From Candidatus Kuenenia stuttgartensis (lineage in GTDB: Bacteria; Planctomycetota; Planctomycetia; Planctomycetales; Planctomycetaceae), in contig CAMDRI010000001.1 in NCBI GenBank assembly GCA_945906725.1, positions 17,789 through 81,788 on the forward strand: a DNA stretch of 64,000 bases, read 5' to 3'. A program made the translations under genes and the position numbers. Below the pieces are notes generated by a model. It searched no databases. It saw only the letters and a list, made by a program, of their open reading frames with translations, and was not told the DNA's origin. Below, one piece after another: positions 34,534 to 47,344 of the stretch. Position 1 is the stretch's first letter, and every line of letters starts with the position of its first letter.

Positions 34534-35595
34534 CTACAGGATTTCCAGCGACGGCATTGGTGCATCGACAATCACACGCTTCGCAATTTGCATTGCGATG
34601 TTCTCGGTAATGCGCAGCAGGTGCGGTTTTACGGGATTGTCGTCTTCGAACAGTGAGGCAATTTGACCGTCGTCGCCGCGCACGCGAATCGTCACATCGA
34701 TGGGGATTTCGCCGAGGAATGGCAGTCCGAGTTCTGCGGCTTTGGCTTGCGCGCCACCGCGTCCAAAGATGTCGCCCGACATGTTCTCGACGATGCCGAG
34801 CACGGGGATTTTGACTTGATCGAACATGCTGATCGCCTTGACGGCATCGAGCAGCGCAACCTTCTGCGGCGTGCAAACCACAACTGCTCCAGCTAAACCG
34901 AGCAGTTGCGAGAGCGTCAATGACACGTCTCCCGTTCCCGGCGGCAAGTCTATGATGAGGTAGTCGAGTTCACCCCAATCGGTTTCTTGCAGGAACTGCG
35001 TGAGTAGCTTGTGCAGCATCGGGCCGCGCCAGATGACCGCCTGGTTCTCGCGGATCAGAAAGCCGATCGAGAGGACTTTCATTCCGTCGGCGTCGATCGG
35101 TTCCAGACGCTGAACCTTCTGCCCGTTGGGAAGTTCAACCTCGCGAACGATCGGCGTCCCCTTCGCGCCGGTGAGCAACGGAATGCTCGGCCCGTAAACG
35201 TCGGCGTCGAGCAGTCCGACTTTCGCTCCGAAATGTTTCAGGCCGTAGGCCAGAGATGCCGCCGTTGTGCTCTTGCCGACACCACCTTTGCCGCTTCCGA
35301 CCGCGACGACGTTCTTGATGCGCAGCCCGATCTTCCCACCGGTTTCGCGGCCGAGCACTTGCCACGAGTACGTGACGTCGACCCTGCGACCGCCGGTTGA
35401 ACTGCCCAGCGCGCTGGCGATCAAGTTACCAATGCGTTCTCGCTTCGGGTAGGCCGGGGTTGGGAGTTGCACTTCGATCTTGATGGCATCGGCCGTCGTC
35501 TGCACGGACCGGATCAGGCCCAGTCGATCGAAAGAGATTTCAAGTTCAGGATCAGTGAGTTGCCCGAGTTTCGAGCGGATTTCAGCGTCTGTCAT
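34534..35595 (-). CDS. Mrp/NBP35-family P-loop Fe-S carrier
   Basis: GSGKGGVGKSTTAASLAYGL, DADVYGPSIPLL, LDYLIIDLPPGTGDVSLTLSQ, VENMSGDIFGRGG. Confidence 0.92.
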   Translation of the reverse strand: MTDAEIRSKLGQLTDPELEISFDRLGLIRSVQTTADAIKIEVQLPTPAYPKRERIGNLIASALGSSTGGRRVDVTYSWQVLGRETGGKIGLRIKNVVAVGSGKGGVGKSTTAASLAYGLKHFGAKVGLLDADVYGPSIPLLTGAKGTPIVREVELPNGQKVQRLEPIDADGMKVLSIGFLIRENQAVIWRGPMLHKLLTQFLQETDWGELDYLIIDLPPGTGDVSLTLSQLLGLAGAVVVCTPQKVALLDAVKAISMFDQVKIPVLGIVENMSGDIFGRGGAQAKAAELGLPFLGEIPIDVTIRVRGDDGQIASLFEDDNPVKPHLLRITENIAMQIAKRVIVDAPMPSLEIL

Positions 35596-35702
35596 GGTCT
35601 CATTACTGGCAAGTTTCGAGGAATGGTTTGGGGGCTTTGAGTTGTAGCGGCCTCACCGACGACGAACAACAAGCACCATTTTGTCACACGGGTCCAATCA
35701 CG

Positions 35703-35816
35703 CCCTTCTCCCCCCGGGAGAAGGTGGCCGAAGGCCGGATGAGGGACTCCATGAGAATGAAAGTCTCCGTGATGTTCGGATCCCTCATCCCGGCCCTCTC
35801 TCAAAGGGAGAGGGAG
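35703..35816. repeat. Two oppositely oriented copies of a CCCTCATCC...CCCTCTCCC palindromic repeat
   Basis: CCCTTCTCCCCCCGGGAGAAGG...GGCCGGATGAGGG and CCCTCATCCCGGCCCTCTCTCAAAGGGAGAGGG. Confidence 0.85.
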
Positions 35817-35837
35817 AAAGCCAAGCCAAAAGACCGG

Positions 35838-36215
35838 TCACTCCGATTTTAAAAACAGTCGTCTGCATGCCCGCGAGAGTTGCTCACCGGACACATCGCC
35901 GACCAAGACTTCGCGCACCCCGACGTCGCGCAGAGTCCATTCCAGATCACCCACGTCCGGAGGACACAGCGCGATCACCGACGGGACTTTCGGCGGCATG
36001 ACCAGTTTGCTCAGCCATTGCAGGCATTCCGCCGGGTCTTCCGGCAGGTCGAAGACCAGGACATCCGCCATCGGAGGAAACGCGAACGCCGAGAATTCGC
36101 TCAAGCTCCGGCAACCACGCACACGCACCGATTCGTTTCGGAACTGGCGTTGCAACTCAGGCTCCCAGCGAGGCCGAGACTCAAACACCACAATCGTCCG
36201 CACAGAATTGGACAC
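35838..36215 (-). CDS. Small receiver-like (CheY-fold) hypothetical protein
   Basis: VRTIVVFESRPRWEPELQRQF...MADVLVFDLPEDPAECLQWLSKLV; weak resemblance to a degenerate REC domain. Confidence 0.5.
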   Translation of the reverse strand: MSNSVRTIVVFESRPRWEPELQRQFRNESVRVRGCRSLSEFSAFAFPPMADVLVFDLPEDPAECLQWLSKLVMPPKVPSVIALCPPDVGDLEWTLRDVGVREVLVGDVSGEQLSRACRRLFLKSE

Positions 36216-36245
36216 GGCAGGCTCGTTGGCGATGAAACTCCGCCG

Positions 36246-36962
36246 CTACTTGTTGCCCTTGAACGCACCCTGCATGCGGACCAATTCGAGCGGTGACAGT
36301 TTTTTACCGTCGGCCACCGTGGGTGCCGCCGGCTTCGGCACTTCGGCTGCCGGGGCAGACTCAGCAGCAGCAGGAGCGGCCGACGCTTGAGGTGCCTCCC
36401 CCGATTTTGCGGCTTGCTGCTGGCGGATCATTTCAATCGGCGACAATTTCTTGCCTTCGCCACTGGCCGTGGGAGTTGGAGCGGCAGCCGGATTGCTCGC
36501 AGCTCCACTCGCTTTGGCCGCACTCTGCTGACGAACCAAATCCAGAGGGCTGAGCTTCGCTCCACCAGTCGCCGGTGCGGATGCCGGCTTCGCACCGGCC
36601 GCACCTTGCTTGCGGATCAAATCCAGCGGACTGGCTTTCTTTTCGGTCGCGGTCGCGGTCGCGTCGGGCTTCGCGGCCGGAGCGGACTTCGCGACTGGCG
36701 ATTCTTTCGCCGGCTTCTCTTCGGCTTTTTTCTTCGGGGTTGGAGCGTCTATCACCGTCAAATACGCAGGATCAATGTCGTACCAGGCAATGTCCGCCGG
36801 GCCGTCGAATAACACGAGTGCTCGGCAACTCATGTTGACCGTCTTGACGACGCCGGTCAGCCCATCGAAGCGGCGGAGCTCCGCCACTCCCGGTTTCACG
36901 ACGACATACTTGTCGGTGTACTGCTTCTTCAGCAACTCGGCTTGTTCAAATCGAGCAGACAT
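36246..36962 (-). CDS. Hypothetical protein: KOW/SH3-like N-terminus and four SP[LI][DE]L/M-[VI]R motifs
   Basis: QYTDKYVVVKPGVAELRRFDGLTGVVKTVNMSCRALVLFDG...; repeats SPLDLIRKQ, SPLDLVRQQ, SPIEMIRQQ, SPLELVRMQ. Confidence 0.7.
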   Translation of the reverse strand: MSARFEQAELLKKQYTDKYVVVKPGVAELRRFDGLTGVVKTVNMSCRALVLFDGPADIAWYDIDPAYLTVIDAPTPKKKAEEKPAKESPVAKSAPAAKPDATATATEKKASPLDLIRKQGAAGAKPASAPATGGAKLSPLDLVRQQSAAKASGAASNPAAAPTPTASGEGKKLSPIEMIRQQQAAKSGEAPQASAAPAAAESAPAAEVPKPAAPTVADGKKLSPLELVRMQGAFKGNK

Positions 36963-37050
36963 GGCGTGGCAGCGTTCTCTTTGAAAGCGATTGGAAAATC
37001 GAAAGAGCAGATATTACTGAGGCAATCGGCGGATGAAAACCAATCGTAAC

Positions 37051-37866
37051 TCACGGCTTTTGCTTCTCGGCCAGCCGTTCGAAGTGCAACCGGCCGACGT
37101 GCCACATGTAATTCGGGCCGTAGCTGGCGGTGCGTCCCCAACGGTTGGCGGTCGCGGCTCGAAAGTGCGGCAATGCCTCCTTCGGACGCTTGAAGGCGTC
37201 ATGCCATAAACCGAGGTACAGCTCAATGTAAAACAATCGCTGCTCACGGACGTTCTGGGGCAACTTCGCATCGACCGACTTCAGCAGATCATCCGGCGTG
37301 AGTTCTGCCTCGAACAGCCGATAAATCGTCGGCATCGGTTCGCGGTCATCCTTTTTGTATTTGAGCAGTCCAGCTCGCGCCTTTTCGGTACCCAGGGTCG
37401 GAGCTTGAGCGATGTACCTCCACAATCCCGCTTCGCGATCGACATCGTCGGTGACGAAAAACTTGTCGAACTGAGTGGCCGATTTCTGCGGCTGCTCGGC
37501 ATAAAAGTACGCGATGCCGAGTCGCCAATGAGAGGCGTCGAGCGCCTGGTCCAGCTCACTCATGCGTTCGTAGTCGCGAACCGACTTGGCGAATTCTCCT
37601 CGAAAGAAGTGCAAATCACCTCGCTTGGAAAGCAGCGACACGCTGTCGGGCATTGCATCAAGATTTTTTGACAGGTCGGCCAGATCGTCAGCCCATTGCT
37701 TGCGCAACTTGGCCTGGTCATCTGCACTGAGCGGATGCTGGCGAGCATCGCTGCTGTCAACTTTCGGCTCATCCGCAGTCACGGCCGGCGTGTGTGCGAG
37801 TTGTCCGAGAGAAGCCAACAGAATGATCGCGTCTCGTACCCAAAAAACGGTCCTGCGTGTCTTCAT
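37051..37866 (-). CDS. TPR-type exported protein
   Basis: Signal peptide; SLLSKRGDLHFFRGEFAKSVRDYERMSELDQALDASHWRLGIAYFYAEQ. Confidence 0.7.
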   Translation of the reverse strand: MKTRRTVFWVRDAIILLASLGQLAHTPAVTADEPKVDSSDARQHPLSADDQAKLRKQWADDLADLSKNLDAMPDSVSLLSKRGDLHFFRGEFAKSVRDYERMSELDQALDASHWRLGIAYFYAEQPQKSATQFDKFFVTDDVDREAGLWRYIAQAPTLGTEKARAGLLKYKKDDREPMPTIYRLFEAELTPDDLLKSVDAKLPQNVREQRLFYIELYLGLWHDAFKRPKEALPHFRAATANRWGRTASYGPNYMWHVGRLHFERLAEKQKP

Positions 37867-37892
37867 TTACTTGCTCCCTGATTGGCAACGAG

Positions 37893-38849
37893 TCAGATTT
37901 CGATCTGCATCACGGAACTCAATTGGCGATCCGGCTGGAGTTCGCGCGAGTGTCTCGGCTCAATGAAAACCAGCCCCCAAGCAATCAGCACTCCTGCCAA
38001 CAGCACGAGCGACAATTGCAAACGGTCGTGATGGTGAAATTGGATTTCCGGCAACAAGTCGCTGAGCGAGATGCAGAGAAAGACTCCTGCCGAAACAGCC
38101 AGCGCGGCTCCGAGGAAAGTGCCGTTCGCGGACAGCACGCTTTCCACCGCGAAAAACAAAATCACTCCGATGGGACACATCGCCGCGAACGCCATATTCG
38201 CCGCCATCCTGGAGCGGCGCGACCAACCCGACGAAGCCATCAACGTCGTAATCGACATCGCATCCAACGGCTTGTGCAGCGCGATTGCCATAAACGTCGC
38301 GACCCCCGCAACCCAAGTCGTCCCGCCCAGCGACATCTCGCTCTGCACGCTCGCAGCCAACGCCATGCCGTCGATTAACGTGTGAACCGTCAACCCAAAG
38401 CCGATCCCCGCCCAGCTCAGATTGTGCGCTGCGGGGGGGTCAACTCCGTGGCTCACATGACTGTGAGTTCCATCGTGATCGTGGTGATGGCCGTGATCGT
38501 GGACCAGACAGCCGGAATGTTCGCTTTCGGCGTTGCTGCCGGGTGCTTGCGCATCGTCTGGTTCGAGGGATGCGTGCTGGTGGAAATGAAACGCACGGAT
38601 CAGGAAGAACATTCCCAGCAGGCCCGCCATCAGCCAGCTCGCGGCGGCGTGAACGTCATAGTTCAGCTTCTCGGTCGCGTGCGGCCACAAGTGAAAGACA
38701 CCGACTCCCAACATCAATCCGGCCACAAAACTCATCAACAGATGCAACGCCCGATGAGTAAACCGCATCATCGCCGGAGCCAACCCGCCAGCCAGCGACG
38801 CCGCCATGATTAGCACGGAATAAAACGCCAAGTGAAATACCAGAGCCAT
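37893..38849 (-). CDS. ZIP family metal transporter
   Basis: HxHxHxH-rich loop (HDHGHHHDHDGTHSH), LTVHTLIDGMALAASV, ALHKPLDAMSI. Confidence 0.85.
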   Translation of the reverse strand: MALVFHLAFYSVLIMAASLAGGLAPAMMRFTHRALHLLMSFVAGLMLGVGVFHLWPHATEKLNYDVHAAASWLMAGLLGMFFLIRAFHFHQHASLEPDDAQAPGSNAESEHSGCLVHDHGHHHDHDGTHSHVSHGVDPPAAHNLSWAGIGFGLTVHTLIDGMALAASVQSEMSLGGTTWVAGVATFMAIALHKPLDAMSITTLMASSGWSRRSRMAANMAFAAMCPIGVILFFAVESVLSANGTFLGAALAVSAGVFLCISLSDLLPEIQFHHHDRLQLSLVLLAGVLIAWGLVFIEPRHSRELQPDRQLSSVMQIEI

Positions 38850-39165
38850 CGTCGCCTCGCACGCCCTGCAAAAGCGACGCATCTTCCGGGGCAACACGCT
38901 CGATTTCCAGCGACCTCACGAATTTACCGTAGGCAGCCTTTCCGGTTCATCGGGAACTTTGGGGGAATCGTTAATTAAGGCCTTTTTTAGGGTGGTGTCA
39001 AAACTCGTGAGGTGGATGTGTTGAGGCATGGCCCCGATGTCCAAATGGTTGATTTGCCGTCCGTTTTTCGGATCAAATGCGGTGCTGAGGGAAACGGAGG
39101 CAGGCTCTGCTGGGAAGCAACCTGCCATGGGATATCTTGGTCTCCGATTCGCCAATGGCGTGTCA

Positions 39166-39195
39166 GGCCCTTGCCGAGACGACTCGACAAGGGCC
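39166..39195. terminator. Strong hairpin, terminator-like
   Basis: GGCCCTTG-c-CGAG-acga-CTCG-a-CAAGGGCC followed by GTTTGCTTT. Confidence 0.45.
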
Positions 39196-39412
39196 GTTTG
39201 CTTTCTCGGCACATTGGACCTCGCAGCCATGCCTCACAAAATCCACGACCATTTCAGACAGAATCCACTTTCATAACACCAGCCCCAGAGGTTCCCGTTG
39301 AACCCTTTTTCGTCACGGTTTGATACGTTGTACGCAGTACGGCGCGTCGCACGGTTTGCAGGCGAGGGCCTGCGACGACCGGAATCTCGCACTGCACTTG
39401 AACCGGTACAGC

Positions 39413-39538
39413 TCAAGGACAGTGATCGACGTATGCGGAATCCTGAACGATGAAGCTGGGGAATCCGAACTCGTCTGAATAGGCAGTCGTGCCGAGGGCC
39501 AAAACGGGAATCAAGGCGAGTGCAAACAGGCGTTTCAT
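39413..39538 (-). CDS. Putative 41-aa exported peptide
   Basis: Below the ORF-track cutoff: MKRLFALALIPVLALGTTAYSDEFGFPSFIVQDSAYVDHCP; AGGGG upstream of ATG; signal-peptide-like N-terminus. Confidence 0.4.
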   Translation of the reverse strand: MKRLFALALIPVLALGTTAYSDEFGFPSFIVQDSAYVDHCP

Positions 39539-39653
39539 GACAATCCCCTGCTTTTGAAGTCAATCAAGCTGAGGGCGGCGAATCAGGGGCGGCGGCTTCT
39601 AGACATCGACGCAGTCTTCCTATTTTCGCATCAACATCAGAGTGAACAAGGCG

Positions 39654-40709
39654 ATGGAAAAAGTCCAGTATTCTCCTGAAAAACTCACGACTCTGGTTCG
39701 CGAACTTTTTCAGGCCGCAGGTGTCGAGGGGGCTGAAGCCAACGAAATCGCGACGAGTTTGGTCGAGTCCAACCTTTGCGGGCACGAATCTCATGGCGTG
39801 CTCCGCGTGGCGGATTACCTCGAAGGATTGCGAACCGGCGAGCTGTGTGGCGGGGTCGAGTGGCAGGTGCTGACTGAAACTCCGGCCGTCCTGGTGGCTG
39901 ATGGTCGACGCGGTTTCGGACAAGTATTGGCTCGCAGATTGGTCGTCTCCCTGGCGGAGAAGTGCCGACCGCTGGGGATCGCGTGTGGCACTTTGAAAAA
40001 CTGTGGCCACGTCGGTCGGCTGGCGGAATGGGTGGAGCTGGCGGCTCGACTCGGCTTAGCGGCGATGATGTCAGTGAATGACAACGGGGTGCTGAAGTGT
40101 GTCGCTCCTCCGGGAGGACTCGAGGCGCGGATCAGCACGAACCCACTCGGACTCGCGGTGCCGACCAGTGGTGAACCACTGGTGCTCGACCTTTCGACCA
40201 GCGTTGTGGCGAATGGCAAAGTCAAAGCCAAACTGCTGGCGGGTGAGCCGTGTCCCTCCGGATGGCTGCAAGACGCGAAGGGAAATCCAACGACCGACCC
40301 AGCCGACCGGTTCAGCGAGAATCCAGGCACGCTGCTGCCGTTGGGGGGTGTTGCTCACGGCTACAAAGGCTTCGGCTTGGGACTACTGTTGGATGTGCTG
40401 GTGGGCGGACTGTCGGGAGGTTGGTGCCCTCCGGCCGATCCTTCCGAGACGGGGACCAATAACGTGTTGATGATCCTGTGGGACTCCGCACGATTCGCGG
40501 GCACACCGCATTTCCTCGGCGAGGCGGACAAACTGATCGACTACGTTCGCTCGACGCCCCGCAAGCCGGGAGTCGATCAGATCACGTTGCCCGGTGATCG
40601 CAGCGCGGCGATCCGTCGCGAACGACTTGCGAATGGGATTCCGCTCGACGCCGGAACCTGGAAGATATTGTGTAGCGCGGCGAAAAAACTGAGTGTCGCG
40701 CTGCCATGA
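39654..40709 (+). CDS. Ldh family (malate/L-lactate dehydrogenase type) oxidoreductase
   Basis: GHESHGVLRVADYLEGL, NCGHVGRLAEWVELAA, NPLGLAVPT, HGYKGFGLGLLLDVL. Confidence 0.88.
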   Translation: MEKVQYSPEKLTTLVRELFQAAGVEGAEANEIATSLVESNLCGHESHGVLRVADYLEGLRTGELCGGVEWQVLTETPAVLVADGRRGFGQVLARRLVVSLAEKCRPLGIACGTLKNCGHVGRLAEWVELAARLGLAAMMSVNDNGVLKCVAPPGGLEARISTNPLGLAVPTSGEPLVLDLSTSVVANGKVKAKLLAGEPCPSGWLQDAKGNPTTDPADRFSENPGTLLPLGGVAHGYKGFGLGLLLDVLVGGLSGGWCPPADPSETGTNNVLMILWDSARFAGTPHFLGEADKLIDYVRSTPRKPGVDQITLPGDRSAAIRRERLANGIPLDAGTWKILCSAAKKLSVALP

Positions 40710-40728
40710 CTTCGTGGGAGAATTTCCA

Positions 40729-42234
40729 ATGCCGTACCACGCGACGATTCGCAATGAGTCGTTCACCTTCGCCGACCTGCGCGAGTTGCTCGCGAAGGCG
40801 AACGAAGTGAAGTCGGGCGATCAACTCACCGGTTTGGCGGCTTCGAGCGCTCGGGAACGTGTCGCGGCGAAATGGGCGCTTGCCGACGTGACACTCGGCG
40901 AGATCGTCGCCAATCCGCTGATTGATCCGGATCACGACGACGTCTCGCGGATGATCCTCGACACTCAGGATCGAACAGCGTTCGAGGAACTCCGCTCACT
41001 GACGGTCGGTGAGTTTCGTGAGTTGCTGCTGTCTGAGCGTGCCGACGAAGCGACGTTGCGGCAATTGCGTTGGGCAATCACTCCAGAAATTGCGGCCGCC
41101 GTCGCGAAGTTGATGAGCAATCAAGACCTCGTGCTCGTGGCGGCGAAGTTTCGCAATGTGACGCGCTGCCGCAACACGCTGGGTGAACGTGGCGTGTTGG
41201 CGATTCGCGTGCAGCCGAATCATCCCAGCGACGACCTGCGCGGGATCGTGCTTTCCGCTTTAGATGGCCTGTTGTTCGGCTGCGGCGACGCGGTGATCGG
41301 CGTCAATCCGGCGGCCGAATCGGTCGAGAGTGTCGCCGCCATCGAACACACGTTGCAGCGGTTGATCGAAGTGCTGGGCGTGCCGACACAATCGTGTTGT
41401 CTCGCGCACATCAGCACTCAGTTGGCAGCGTTAGATTGTGGTGCTCCGATTGATTTGCTGTTTCAGTCAATCGCGGGCACGCAAGCGGCGAATGAATCTT
41501 TCGGTGTGACGCTGGCAATGCTGCGCGAGGGACGCGAGCGAGTAATCGAGCATCATGCGGTTCGCGGGCTAAACATCGCGAGCGAACGTCAAATGAATCG
41601 AGACTCGCACCCCGGCCCTCTCCCAAAGGGAGAGGGAGTAAGTCAGCCTCGCCCCTCGCTCCCCGTCACTCGCCCCTCGTCCCACAACGTCATGTATTTC
41701 GAGACGGGGCAGGGGAGCGCGCTCTCGGCGGAGGCTCATCACGGCGTCGATCAACTCACACTGGAGGCGCGGGCCTACGGAGTCGCTCGCGTGTTCGAGC
41801 CGTTCCTGGTCAACAGCGTGGTCGGGTTCATCGGGCCGGAGTACCTCGCCAACGAGCGGCAGATCATTCGAGCAGGACTCGAAGATCACTTCATGGGCAA
41901 GCTGCTGGGACTGCCGATGGGCTGCGATGTCTGCTACACGAATCATGCGGACGCGGATCAGAATTCGGCGGACAACTTGCTGATGCTGCTGACAGCGGCG
42001 GGCTGCAACTATTTCATGGGCGTCCCCTGCTCGGACGACGTGATGCTGAATTACCAATCGACCAGCTACCACGACGCGGCGGCGATGCGCGGACTGTTCG
42101 GCCTGCGACCAGCTCCGGAGTTTGAAGCCTGGCTGCAAGCGACCGGCGTGTTCGATGGTTCGCAGTTGGCAATCACCGGCGACGAGCCGCGACAACGATT
42201 GATTGCGCAGTTGGATCGCGTGCTGCACAGGTGA
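40729..42234 (+). CDS. eutB: Ethanolamine ammonia-lyase large subunit-like, with in-frame repeat-derived insertion
   Basis: MILDTQDRTAFEELRSLTVGEFRELLL, NVMYFETGQGSALSAEAHHGVDQLTLEARAYGVAR, GCDVCYTNHADADQNSADNLLMLLTAAGCNYFMGVPCSDDVMLNYQSTSYHD. Confidence 0.92.
   Translation: MPYHATIRNESFTFADLRELLAKANEVKSGDQLTGLAASSARERVAAKWALADVTLGEIVANPLIDPDHDDVSRMILDTQDRTAFEELRSLTVGEFRELLLSERADEATLRQLRWAITPEIAAAVAKLMSNQDLVLVAAKFRNVTRCRNTLGERGVLAIRVQPNHPSDDLRGIVLSALDGLLFGCGDAVIGVNPAAESVESVAAIEHTLQRLIEVLGVPTQSCCLAHISTQLAALDCGAPIDLLFQSIAGTQAANESFGVTLAMLREGRERVIEHHAVRGLNIASERQMNRDSHPGPLPKGEGVSQPRPSLPVTRPSSHNVMYFETGQGSALSAEAHHGVDQLTLEARAYGVARVFEPFLVNSVVGFIGPEYLANERQIIRAGLEDHFMGKLLGLPMGCDVCYTNHADADQNSADNLLMLLTAAGCNYFMGVPCSDDVMLNYQSTSYHDAAAMRGLFGLRPAPEFEAWLQATGVFDGSQLAITGDEPRQRLIAQLDRVLHR
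41602..41682. repeat. Composite repeat inside eutB: palindrome plus 7-bp array
   Basis: CCCTCTCCC-AAA-GGGAGAGGG at 41616-41636, then CTCGCCC CTCGCTC CCCGTCA CTCGCCC CTCGTCC at 41648-41682; translates as RDSHPGPLPKGEGVSQPRPSLPVTRPS. Confidence 0.85.
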
Positions 42235-42292
42235 CTCAACGATCCTCGTGACGCTCGCGAGCCAACTGCCGCGCGATGTACGAGCCGGCGTT

Positions 42293-42655
42293 TTAGTCGT
42301 CGCAGACGCAGGGGGTCAGTCCTTTTTCGAGCCGCTCCTGCCACGCGCTTGATTTGTACTTTCGCTTTGCGACTGCCCTGATGGCCGCCAAGATCTTGTC
42401 GAAGTCTTTGCCGTTCTTTTCGCCGAGTTCCTCGGCGATCGCTTTGCCGTAGTGGTTCAGGTGTTTCTTGTCGTCTCCGGGAGAATGACAGATCTCGCAA
42501 CTGACTTTGTTGGTCTTCAACACGTCCTTGTACACGAAGTCAAACGCCTTCTTGTAAATTGGCCGTGCTTCGCTCGGACGTTCAGAGGCGAGAAGGAATG
42601 CGGTGGCCAGTGAACCGGCAAGACACAACGGTCGAAGCAGGAAATGAGTCACCAT
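42293..42655 (-). CDS. Small exported monoheme cytochrome-like protein
   Basis: Signal peptide and CEICHSPGDDKKHLNHYGKAIAEELG. Confidence 0.7.
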   Translation of the reverse strand: MVTHFLLRPLCLAGSLATAFLLASERPSEARPIYKKAFDFVYKDVLKTNKVSCEICHSPGDDKKHLNHYGKAIAEELGEKNGKDFDKILAAIRAVAKRKYKSSAWQERLEKGLTPCVCDD

Positions 42656-42689
42656 GACTGGCTCCCCAACTGCGAGGCAAGGAGTCTGA

Positions 42690-43973
42690 TTACCCTAGAC
42701 GTTCCGCGATCAACAACGGCGCATCCGTAGAATCATCACCGATGGTGATAGCCGTTCGCAGTCGAAGGGCAACTTCGTCGAACTTGGCTGGCGGGGCGAA
42801 GACTCGGACAAGCGGTTGGCCGTACGCGACCTCGTCACCGATGCGAACGAGATTTTCGAGGCCGACGCTGTGGTCAATTGGGTCGGTGAGCTGACGGCGG
42901 CCTCCGCCGAGGTCGATGATGATCCAGCCAAACGTCTCCGTGTCGATGGATTCGACGATCCCGGAACGCTCGCCACACAGATCGTGAGCCGGCGCGATCG
43001 GGCGTGGTGAGTCGAGTCGCCCGCCTTGGGCCGCGACCATTCGCTCGAAGCGTTCCAGCGCGCGGCCTGAGTCGAGTTCACGAAGCAATCGTGCTCTTGC
43101 TGCGGTGCGCGTGTCGGCAATCTTCGCGCTGACCAGGACATCCTCGCCGAGTTCTAACACGAGTTCGCGCAGATCACTCGGTCCTCCGCCGCGCAGGCAG
43201 TCGAGAGATTCTGCGATCTCAACGGCGTTGCCGGCCATGCGGCCGAGCGGTTGATTCATGTCGGTCAGGAAGGCGGTCGTCGCGACGCCCATCCGTTTTC
43301 CGACAGCGACCATGCCGACGGCCAGTTCGCGGGCGGTCGTTCGCGATTTCATGAACGCTCCGCGGCCGAACTTCACGTCGAGCACCAGTGCGTTCAAGCC
43401 CTCGGCCAACTTCTTGCTCATAATGCTGGCGGTGATCAGCGGCACGGACGGAACCGTCGCGGTCACATCGCGCAAAGCGTAAAGCTGCTGGTCGGCTGGG
43501 ACTAACTCCGGCGTCGTGCCGGTGATGACGCAGCCGACCTGCTCGGTCAACCGTTGAATTTCTTCCAGCGACAAATTCGTGCGAAAGCCGGCAATGGATT
43601 CCAGCTTGTCGAGTGTGCCGCCGGTCGGGCCGAGTCCTCTGCCAGAGAGCATCGGCACGCAGACATCACAGCAGGCCAGCAGCGGCGCGAGCGGCAACGA
43701 GACTTTGTCGCCGATGCCGCCGGTCGAATGTTTGTCGACGCGCGGCAAACAGGTCGTTGGCCAGGTCAGCGTCACACCGGACCGCAACATGCTGTCGGTG
43801 AGCGCGGCGGTTTCGGCATCGGTCAATCCGCGCAGGAATATCGCGATCAGCAGCGCGGCCATTTGGTAGTCAGGGATGCGACCATGCACATGTCCGTCGA
43901 TCAGAAACGCAATCTCCTCGACGGTCAGTTCGCCGGCGTCTCGTTTCTTCGCGATGAGTTGCGTGGGATTCAT
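42690..43973 (-). CDS. Thymidine/pyrimidine-nucleoside phosphorylase
   Basis: [36 protein letters not shown]-like start, [53 protein letters not shown]. Confidence 0.92.
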   Translation of the reverse strand: [427 protein letters not shown]

Positions 43974-44869
43974 GAGTGGGGCGAGGGGCGAGGGACGAGG
44001 GGTGAGTTGGAAGTCCATTCCATCAGAAGGCGAGTGACCAGTTGGCGGAGATTCGGTTCGGCGTTCAAGGCGGCGTGGATGACTTCGCCGCTGGTGGTTT
44101 GTTGGACATCGTCGGAGCGGAAGACGTTGGTGACCATCGAGAACGCGATGACCGGCAAGCCGAGTTCTCCAGCAGCGAGCACTTCGGGGACGGTGGACAT
44201 CCCCACGACGTCACCAAGCGTGCGCAGCCAATGGTACTCGGCACGGGTTTCGTAGTTCGGGCCGAGCATCGCGATGTAGATGCCACGCCGCAACGGGATG
44301 TCTTGATCGGACGCGATGCGTTCAGCAAGCGACATCAACCACGGATCGTAGAATGATCGGGATACCGTCGCTGTAGGATGGGCACTCTTGCCTGTCCCTT
44401 CCGGGCGGACGGGCAATCCGCCAATGGCGGACCATCCTCCGGCACCCATCAGGTTGATTTGGTCGTCGATCAGCAGCATGTCTCCGGAACGGAGCGACGG
44501 ATTCAACCCACCGCTGGCGTTCGACAGAATCAAGAACGACACGCCAAGTTCGGCGAAGACTCGAATCGGAAACGTGATCTGCAAAAACGAGTACCCCTCG
44601 TAGGCGTGAAAGCGGCCGTCCATCGCGAGGATCGGGACGTCGGCCAATCGTCCGGCGAGCAGTCGGCCGCGATGTCCGTCGGCGGTTGAGCGAGCGAAAT
44701 GTGGCAGGTCTCGGTAGTTCCATTCGGCTTCAATCGCGATGTGTTCGGCGAGCGATCCCAGTCCGGTGCCGAGGATAATCGCCGCTCGCGGACGCTCCGC
44801 CCAACCCGCACGGATAAGGGCAGCGGTTTCCGCAACGGCGGCAGCCAGTTGGTCGGCAGAGCGATTCAT
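43970..44869 (-). CDS. punA: Purine nucleoside phosphorylase, with repeat-derived internal segment and tail
   Basis: IILGTGLGSLAEHI, GRFHAYEGYS, NASGGLNPSLRSGDMLLIDDQINLMG, MLGPNYETRAEYHWLRTLGDVVGMSTVPEV, FSMVTNVF. Confidence 0.9.
   Translation of the reverse strand: MNRSADQLAAAVAETAALIRAGWAERPRAAIILGTGLGSLAEHIAIEAEWNYRDLPHFARSTADGHRGRLLAGRLADVPILAMDGRFHAYEGYSFLQITFPIRVFAELGVSFLILSNASGGLNPSLRSGDMLLIDDQINLMGAGGWSAIGGLPVRPEGTGKSAHPTATVSRSFYDPWLMSLAERIASDQDIPLRRGIYIAMLGPNYETRAEYHWLRTLGDVVGMSTVPEVLAAGELGLPVIAFSMVTNVFRSDDVQQTTSGEVIHAALNAEPNLRQLVTRLLMEWTSNSPLVPRPSPHS
44372..44439. repeat. Copy of TGTAGGATGGGCACTCTTGCC repeat inside punA
   Basis: Near-identical 25-bp core to 63431-63455. Confidence 0.85.
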
Positions 44870-44881
44870 CGCGAGGATTCC

Positions 44882-47344
44882 TCAGCGTCGGCCATTGCGG
44901 TCGCGCCATTGCTGTTCCATCTGGCCGAGCTGCGATTCGATTTGCCGCTGCTCGTTAAGCGAGAGCAATTCGCCGCCGAAGCGGACTCGATAAAACTGCG
45001 CAACGACGTCTGAGGGAAGGCTCGACGAGTTGTCTGCCGAGAGCCGCTGCGACCACTCCGATTGCGAAGCGATCAGGAACTCGCGCGCAGTTTGAGCGGG
45101 CAGCGGTTCGAGGCCGGCAGTTCGCAGCAACCGCAGAAACCGTTCGTAGAATTCGACTCGCAGTCGTTGATCAACTGACTCGCCGTGCAGTCGTCGCAGC
45201 AGTCCCGACCACCAGCGCGACCAACGTGACCGCCAACCATCGCCGTTGTTCGTCGAGTTCTCGCTGGGAAGCAGCCAACTCAGAAAGTTCAGCAGGCGGA
45301 CGAACCATCGTGACCGCGTCTCCGCAAGCATCCTTGAGCGGGAGGCCAACAGCAATGTTCCCACGAGGACACTGAGCACAACCACAATCGTCAAGCCGGC
45401 AATGACCTGACTACGCCGCCGCGAGAAGCCTCCGCTAGCACTTTCACCATTCCGAAAACCTTCGATGCTTTCTCGAAGACCCTCCCAAGCGGTCGTGCCC
45501 AATTCCTTGAGTGGCGTGTAGAGGTTACTGCTCTGGTCGTTGAATGACATACCGACAATTCGGTGTGACCAAATACTGGAGAACATGTCCGCCAGATTGC
45601 CGAACAGGCCTTTTTTCGGAGCGAGCGATTTGACACTGTCGGATCGACCAGCGGGAGTCGCATCGAGAACACGCCAGCGGCCGTTGAGCAAGGCTTCCAC
45701 CCAAACGTGCGCGTGCCGGCCTTGTACGACGAAGTACCCCGTACTCTTGTTCAGATCGCCACCCTTGAAACCGCTGACCAGCCGAGCAGGAATACCGACC
45801 GCTCGCAGCATCAAGCCCAACGCCGAGCCGAAGTACTCGCAATGACCTTGCTTGCGGTTGAAGAGGAAGTCCTCGACGGCGTCGATCGACGGATCGTCCA
45901 CAGACATGTCCAGCGTGTAGCCATACTCGCCAGAGTCCCGCAGGTGATCCAGGATGCGACGCGCCATCTCGGTTGGGTTTGAATTCGGAGCATCGGGCGG
46001 TTCGGCGATTTTCCGCGCCAAGGTTCTTAACCGTTCCAGGCCAGCGGGCAGGGCACGGTAGTATTCGACTTCATTGGGGAAGATCAAATTGCCGTGAGTG
46101 CCTCGTGGAAACGGCACATCGGCTTCGGGATATGGCTTCTCTGAATAAATCTTGTACTGCAATCGTTCACGGCCGGAGATGCCGTCGTCACGATACAAGA
46201 CCGCTGTCAACCTCCGTTCGGTGAGGTGCGGCAATCGATGATCCAGCACTCCAGCCAGATGTTGTGGCATCGCGAACAAGATGCCCGAATCCATCGGCTC
46301 CATCCGAAACTCTTGCCGAATGCAATCGTCGACCGGAATTGACAACACATTCCTCGGCCCGTCATTTCGTCCTGTCGTGCCGACGCGCCACTTTCCGTTT
46401 TCATATTCGCCCATCACCGAACCACGAAAGATGGGTTCATCAAACCCCTGTCGTGCGGCATGCGTGACGATGTCGATGGGTTGATTGGCGACCTGATCGA
46501 ACAACCGCACCTCGAGCACGGTGTTTGTTGCTTCCAGGATTTGGCCGATGTCGCCGAGTTGCACCTCTTCAGCGAATCCGCTCTGCAATGCTCGTAACGG
46601 CTGATCGGGAGCTTCGCCAAACGCCGACAAATTGCCGACCCAAATCCGTGGCGTGAACATGAAGAACAACATCCCCACGACAGCGGAAAGCATCACATTC
46701 GCCATCACCCCCGTAACGAACGGCCCACTCATCCAATGCAGTCGAGGATCAATTTGCATCGTGCTGATCGGCCGGCTGCGCTGATTCCAGCGGAAAACGT
46801 CTGCCGATTCCGAACGGACCAACTCGTCGCGAGCTTCGCCCTTCTGGTGCATTGCGAGCGGCACCGCATCCTCTTCGGCGTATCGCTGTCGAGCGCGGCT
46901 GACCGTGAAGATCGTCAACGTCCAAACGGAAGCGAACAGGAAGAAGACGCACATCAAACCAAAACCTCCCGCAGAGGTGAGCACAGCTCCAATCGCGACA
47001 TGCAGCACCGACAGCAAACACATGGTCCAATACGTCCGAGACGTCTTGGCCATGAACAGCACGATCCATGTCAAGTAGACCAACAGGTGCGCAAGCGACA
47101 ACAGCCGAGCTTCGATCAGGCCGCCGCTCAACTCCCAGCCGGCCAGACCAAACGACACCAGCCCCAGGACGTTGGCCCAACGGACTCGCAGATGAAACAG
47201 CTTCCAGCGATCCGTCAGAAACAACGCCAACAACGCCATCGGAATCGTGAAGGCGTCAGGGAAGGCCTCACCTTCGGCGAACGCCAGCATGCCGCTCGCC
47301 AACATCACCAAGCCGTACAAGCTGACTTGTAGAGCTTTCGTCAT
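44882..47344 (-). CDS. TgpA/DUF3488 transglutaminase-like membrane protein
   Basis: Multiple TM helices, then YTLDMSVDDPSIDAVEDFLFNRKQGHCEYFGSALGLMLRAVGIPARLVSGFKGGD, HAHVWVEALLNGRWRVLDATP. Confidence 0.88.
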   Translation of the reverse strand: MTKALQVSLYGLVMLASGMLAFAEGEAFPDAFTIPMALLALFLTDRWKLFHLRVRWANVLGLVSFGLAGWELSGGLIEARLLSLAHLLVYLTWIVLFMAKTSRTYWTMCLLSVLHVAIGAVLTSAGGFGLMCVFFLFASVWTLTIFTVSRARQRYAEEDAVPLAMHQKGEARDELVRSESADVFRWNQRSRPISTMQIDPRLHWMSGPFVTGVMANVMLSAVVGMLFFMFTPRIWVGNLSAFGEAPDQPLRALQSGFAEEVQLGDIGQILEATNTVLEVRLFDQVANQPIDIVTHAARQGFDEPIFRGSVMGEYENGKWRVGTTGRNDGPRNVLSIPVDDCIRQEFRMEPMDSGILFAMPQHLAGVLDHRLPHLTERRLTAVLYRDDGISGRERLQYKIYSEKPYPEADVPFPRGTHGNLIFPNEVEYYRALPAGLERLRTLARKIAEPPDAPNSNPTEMARRILDHLRDSGEYGYTLDMSVDDPSIDAVEDFLFNRKQGHCEYFGSALGLMLRAVGIPARLVSGFKGGDLNKSTGYFVVQGRHAHVWVEALLNGRWRVLDATPAGRSDSVKSLAPKKGLFGNLADMFSSIWSHRIVGMSFNDQSSNLYTPLKELGTTAWEGLRESIEGFRNGESASGGFSRRRSQVIAGLTIVVVLSVLVGTLLLASRSRMLAETRSRWFVRLLNFLSWLLPSENSTNNGDGWRSRWSRWWSGLLRRLHGESVDQRLRVEFYERFLRLLRTAGLEPLPAQTAREFLIASQSEWSQRLSADNSSSLPSDVVAQFYRVRFGGELLSLNEQRQIESQLGQMEQQWRDRNGRR

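Follow-up and report, generated by a model that had tools for sequence, protein, structure and literature searches.

An in-frame REP palindrome and a heptamer array in a planctomycete eutB gene occupy a loop that holds other repeats in sister species

How does interspersed repeat DNA come to lie within the reading frame of an enzyme gene, about six codons upstream of its catalytic glutamate, without breaking that frame? The question is raised by eutB, encoding the large subunit of ethanolamine ammonia-lyase, in a 64,000-nt stretch of DNA from an uncultured planctomycete (hereafter, the window). The assembly containing the window, G000, comprises 5.45 Mb in 268 contigs and is 92% complete, with 3.5% contamination. 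The eutB ORF is open from a GTG at 40693 to 42234 on the forward strand (513 codons), and the gene likely starts at the ATG at 40729 (40729–42234, +). Its product matched the Pfam EutB domain (PF06751) with 656 bits, in two separate stretches, and the solved EutB structures 2qez and 3abo with E < 1e-140; it also carries the conserved catalytic motif. Within the genus, the regions flanking the insert evolve at a dN/dS of 0.05–0.08, showing that the gene is maintained by strong purifying selection and contradicting the possibility that it is a pseudogene.

The repeats lie in a genus-specific loop (41575–41685, +), which spans about 37 codons, is defined relative to outgroup EutB, and has a left border that, as placed by alignment with genus and outgroup proteins, is uncertain in its exact position. 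The palindrome described in the original prediction was confirmed in frame at 41616–41636 (+). It is a perfect 9+3+9 palindrome, CCCTCTCCC-AAA-GGGAGAGGG (whole: CCCTCTCCCAAAGGGAGAGGG), and together with a preceding tail, GACTCGCACCCCGG, it forms a repetitive extragenic palindromic (REP) unit of the short-tail type (41602–41636, +), with an approximate tail boundary set from the architecture of other copies. This single unit, which is not part of an inverted pair, reads HPGPLPKGEG in translation. Downstream, a heptamer array at 41647–41681 (+) was detected by Tandem Repeats Finder with a period of 14 (2 x 7), 76% matches, and a score of 42, and was corroborated by alignment and by its genomic family. 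The array had been predicted as a run of CTCGCCC; it is present, but it is short, degenerate, and of the type CTCGNCN, and taken alone it does not exceed chance within the window. Palindrome, tail, and array are all in frame, and NVMYFETGQG follows the insert directly. Based on alignment ranges to 3abo and 2qez, codon 41701–41703 (+) corresponds to E. coli EutB residue 287 in 3abo coordinates, a glutamate that we take to be the catalytic residue.

The adjacency of the insert to the active-site motif thus holds in the sequence, but probably not in space. In a TIM barrel, the active site and the loops that precede strands are on opposite faces, and the fold accordingly suggests that the insert loop lies away from the catalytic face. 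An AlphaFold2 model of EutB from the single sequence, with no alignment, had a mean pLDDT of 38.6 and was uninformative on this point. A search of window positions 35000–45000 against Rfam gave no match. When the insert was folded as RNA, a hairpin formed, but the folded region was no more stable than its shuffles (z -0.25).

The palindrome belongs to a dispersed family. Three members occur in the window, compared to 0.02 expected from dinucleotide shuffles. The other two, identified by the window scan and by comparison with other copies, form a BIME-like inverted pair of the same REP family (35704–35814, no strand assigned) within the intergenic gap 35596–36245. One member (35794–35814, one mismatch) is the relative originally reported near 35782–35815, and its partner lies at 35704–35724 (two mismatches). 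In the whole G000 assembly the palindrome was found at 67 places with at most two mismatches, while the reversed-pattern control yielded none. Units consist of the palindrome and a tail, which was short (CCCTCAYCCYRG) in 94 and long (CCCTCAYCCGGCCTTCGGCCA) in 90 of 200 units, and they are frequently arranged in inverted pairs of roughly 70–170 bp that join a long-tail to a short-tail unit, i.e., the BIME architecture. The stem is almost fixed, the 3-nt loop is highly varied in sequence, and compensated stem variants exist (e.g., CCTTCTCCC..GGGAGAAGG). The family therefore shares with REPs and BIMEs in general a dispersed multicopy palindrome and pairs of alternating orientation, but it is not predominantly extragenic (see below), and the GTAG and CGTC tags were present within 8 nt of the stem in only 2 and 21 of 200 units, respectively.

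The distribution of the family in the phylum is patchy: it was found in 27 of 296 genomes, with a maximum of 186 perfect copies, and is nearly missing from the sampled remainder of the host's taxonomic family. Within the genus, perfect copies numbered 59 in G007, 47 in G006, 23 in G000, 11 in G005, 5 in G011, and 1 each in G003 and G002, and five genomes had none; since REPs break short-read assemblies, these copy numbers are probably too low. Five G006 contigs (C1, C112, C21, C256, and C541) start or stop in, or a few bases from, a REP palindrome. No REP copy was found near any of the 24 Y1_Tnp locus records examined in the genus, some of which overlap. Four genus RAYT loci (L047, L049, L058, and L059) are flanked by clustered palindromes of their own, CCCACCGTTTCAACGGTGGG, CCCAGCRATRAATYGCTGGG, and CCGTGGGTTTCAACCCACGG, which are distinct from the eutB-type REP.

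The comparison of eutB with its close relatives, which had been proposed as a check, was performed on orthologous EutB from ten genus members. The REP is present in three of them: G000, G003 (as HLSPLPKGEG), and G006, where it spans a contig break, with two contigs terminating in the palindrome. In the remaining seven, that position is taken by another insert, of the TAVGxRPSAxGRH type, which is encoded by (GGCNNTC)n heptamers. The original claim that canonical EutB has no insert is accurate for 2qez, 3abo, and the outgroups, which have nothing comparable (in the outgroups, MYFETGQG is preceded by a short plain linker), but does not extend to the genus, all ten of whose EutB proteins carry some repeat. 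Because some repeat occupies that point in every case, the site is better described as a recurrent landing site than as the product of one event. In the eutB gene tree, G002, G004, G008, and G010 are apart from the others, and the REP carriers are not resolved as one group; the REP may have been inserted once and later replaced, may have been transferred, or may have been inserted repeatedly. Both clades of the genus have the heptamer-type loop. It may be older than the REP, in which case the composite nature of the insert would be historical.

The insert has diverged faster than the gene around it. Between G000 and G003, pN was 0.24 in the insert and 0.045 in its flanks, and the heptamer array makes the G000 gene longer by 21 bp, exactly three heptamers. 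The palindrome is nevertheless identical in the two genes, at a flank dS of 0.755, and G003 has no other perfect copy. EutC is encoded away from eutB in the genus; it was detected in 9 of 12 genomes and not found in G000, G006, and G010, absences that are likely assembly gaps.

Insertion into coding sequence is not confined to eutB. Many other palindrome copies were found inside long ORFs once their flanks were read. Using a best-frame codon score with a random-point control, 57 of 118 elements in four genomes were called as lying in frame within coding ORFs, representing 37 distinct insertions. The classifier is rough, and by the same score 208 of 400 random window points fell inside genes; since the two fractions are similar, there is no visible depletion of the elements within genes. 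For at least 11 inserts, the placement was confirmed by surrounding Pfam domains. The hosts are NadE, YgiQ, GlpD, an HrpA-type helicase, an Lhr-type helicase, an AcrB/CusA-type pump, an ABC ATPase, ApbE, a DUF7133 protein, a WD40 protein, and EutB itself, and the inserts lie inside domains or between them.

Several of these loops differ between sister species. The inter-domain linker of NadE holds a BIME common to G000, G005, G006, and G007; it has another sequence, apparently a different repeat, in G002, G004, and G010, and is short in G011, G003, and G008. In YgiQ, G000 and G006 have the BIME, G011 has one REP whose outer borders match those of the BIME, and G005 has neither. GlpD has a REP in G000, G006, and G007, and a decayed REP that is still in frame in G005. 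A different insert of about 45 amino acids (REAVSLSSPKNERGQTPQD...) lies in another loop of G001 GlpD (L137). In the HrpA-type helicase (L008, approximately residues 220–255, and L188), G000 has EDEAPAEP..GSVGASPSRNE at the position of the G006 BIME, apparently another repeat family read in frame. G000 has two ygiQ genes, L141 on contig C79 and L117 on contig C32. The former is identical to that of G011 over 240 nt around the loop, pointing to a G011-like organism as the origin of contig C79.

The heptamers also form genuine interspersed families. CTCGNCN arrays are enriched genome-wide, with 7 in G000, 18 in G006, and 16 in G007, compared to 0–1 in the control. The GGCNNTC heptamers constitute a second interspersed family, and the eutB copies of G005, G007, G008, and G010 are among its matches. 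The prediction that two interspersed repeat types share one unbroken ORF was thus borne out.

Does selection act on the inserted DNA as code, as a hairpin, or both? Among REPs for which both codon phases are open, PLPxGEG was preferred to LSxxERG by 34 to 10, each insertion being counted once (p = 4e-4). This bias suggests selection on the encoded peptide, the selected property plausibly being that of a soluble, flexible turn. Orthologs found by protein homology, and limited to those retaining the element, differed at 7 of 180 stem positions and 7 of 30 loop positions, while divergence at 4-fold sites was 0.28–0.36. Such conservation of the stem reflects either a constraint on a nucleic acid hairpin or homogenization between copies.

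We consider it probable that mobile DNA of the REP and heptamer types settled in a permissive EutB loop, where it is translated into a flexible linker, rich in proline and glycine, that the enzyme can do without. Under this scenario, REP DNA and slippage-prone heptamers would land or grow at many sites, and selection would filter these random insertions, such that only soluble, in-frame inserts in loops persist. The mobility of the REP is suggested by its distribution. In EutB, the insert would be retained in the mature protein, where its peptide, though preceding the strand with the catalytic glutamate, presumably has no role in catalysis, and the palindrome arms would be kept alike by a hairpin constraint or by homogenization of copies. 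Several observations support this explanation: a single insertion point in EutB holds different repeats in sister species; the NadE and YgiQ loops also swap repeats, and some sister species have REP-free alleles of them; the G000 and G003 inserts differ by whole heptamers; the insert diverges faster than its constrained flanks; in-frame insertions are numerous; and the PLPxGEG phase is favored. What weighs most heavily against a purely neutral linker is that stems are far more conserved than 4-fold sites. The same point underlies a rather unlikely alternative, in which the insert is retained for the REP hairpin as DNA or RNA (a protein-binding site, or an element of mRNA stability or pausing) and the peptide is a by-product. 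It is favored by the near-invariance of orthologous intragenic stems whose loops and spacers drift, by the compensated stem variants, and by the identity of the G000 and G003 eutB palindromes despite their divergence and the lack of another perfect copy in G003. However, gene conversion or palindrome self-correction might also keep stems alike, seven genus eutB genes have no REP, the decayed REP of G005 glpD stays in frame, the folded eutB region does not stand out from shuffles, and the host genes share no common expression logic.

That EutB has co-opted the insert for a function of its own, e.g., contact with the EutC subunit or regulation, appears very improbable. An insert of some kind at that point in all ten genus proteins, a frame maintained over long divergence, and a phase preference suggesting that the peptide matters speak for this idea; yet the loops of sister species hold unrelated peptides of differing lengths, the insert pN is about five times that of the flanks, and dozens of unrelated proteins contain the same peptides. 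An assembly artefact, contamination, or a pseudogene can be practically dismissed: G000 is fragmented, EutC was not found in it, and the C79 ygiQ loop indicates some mixing, but the same REP occurs in the independently assembled G003 and G006 eutB, the frame is open with a flank dN/dS of 0.05–0.08, most genus genomes (9 of 12) do have EutC, and the nadE insert is common to four genomes. We also tentatively entertain a more far-reaching view, which may well not hold: protein loops of the genus would serve as general docking sites for several unrelated mobile or slippage repeats (REP/BIME, heptamer families, and others) that replace one another in a given loop between sister species, with REP stems conserved within genes as nucleic acid hairpins and one stretch selected both as code and as hairpin.

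In-frame palindromic repeats are best known from Rickettsia. The resemblance to Rickettsia palindromic elements (RPEs) noted in the original prediction holds as an analogy, in that many unrelated genes contain translated, in-frame palindromes (37 distinct insertions here). As palindromic repeats, RPEs are likewise read in frame as parts of unrelated genes (PMC10969869). They are about 150 bp long with a conserved peptide, while the planctomycete unit is about 35 bp, occurs singly or in inverted pairs, and is unrelated in sequence. Since both sequence family and organism differ, the insert is not an RPE. It resembles REPs, BIMEs, and REPINs with RAYT transposases in its short palindrome, conserved tail, and frequent inverted pairs, but unlike RAYT-linked REPs, it was not found near any of the examined genus RAYT loci. 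REP singles and dimers in frame within unrelated conserved genes, encoding 20–30 amino acids or more, were described by Di Nocera 2013, with examples in Opitutus terrae, Thauera, and Rickettsia conorii, and a neutral position in loops or linkers was proposed for them (PMC3733652). Those REPs are GTAG- or CGTC-tagged; the planctomycete REP carries neither tag and therefore falls outside those super-families, although it works like them. It further differs in being about half intragenic, in sharing loops with other repeat families, and in that sister species offer REP-free, REP, BIME, and decayed alleles. Thus, in-frame REPs were already known, and what is new here is an untagged, unusually extensive REP family, about half intragenic, that shares protein loops with unrelated repeats. 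In the literature searched, no paper was found on the encoded peptides PLPKGEG, PLPLGEG, PLPEGEG, PLPAGEG, GEGGRRPGEG, or LSLWERAGVR.

Because these alternative versions of individual loops survive in sister species, the long-standing question of whether in-frame repeats are tolerated junk or supply new protein parts can be tested directly in ordinary enzymes such as NadE, GlpD, and EutB. For annotators, PLPxGEG and LSxxERG peptides in these proteins mark translated repeats, and such repeats break short-read assemblies within genes.

Heptamer satellites of bacteria, e.g., (GATAGRA)n of Chloroflexus, are interspersed arrays of 7-bp units (PMC6749651). By comparison, the units in this genus are CTCGNCN or GGCNNTC, the arrays are short, and some are in frame inside proteins. 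A second heptamer array in the window, GGGGCGA x 4 at 43978–44006, lies at the junction between the end of a purine nucleoside phosphorylase-like gene (43970–44869, -) and the start of a thymidine phosphorylase-like gene (42690–44018, -), both named from sequence alone. Being at the end of the former gene, this array encodes the C-terminal tail of the purine nucleoside phosphorylase-like product.
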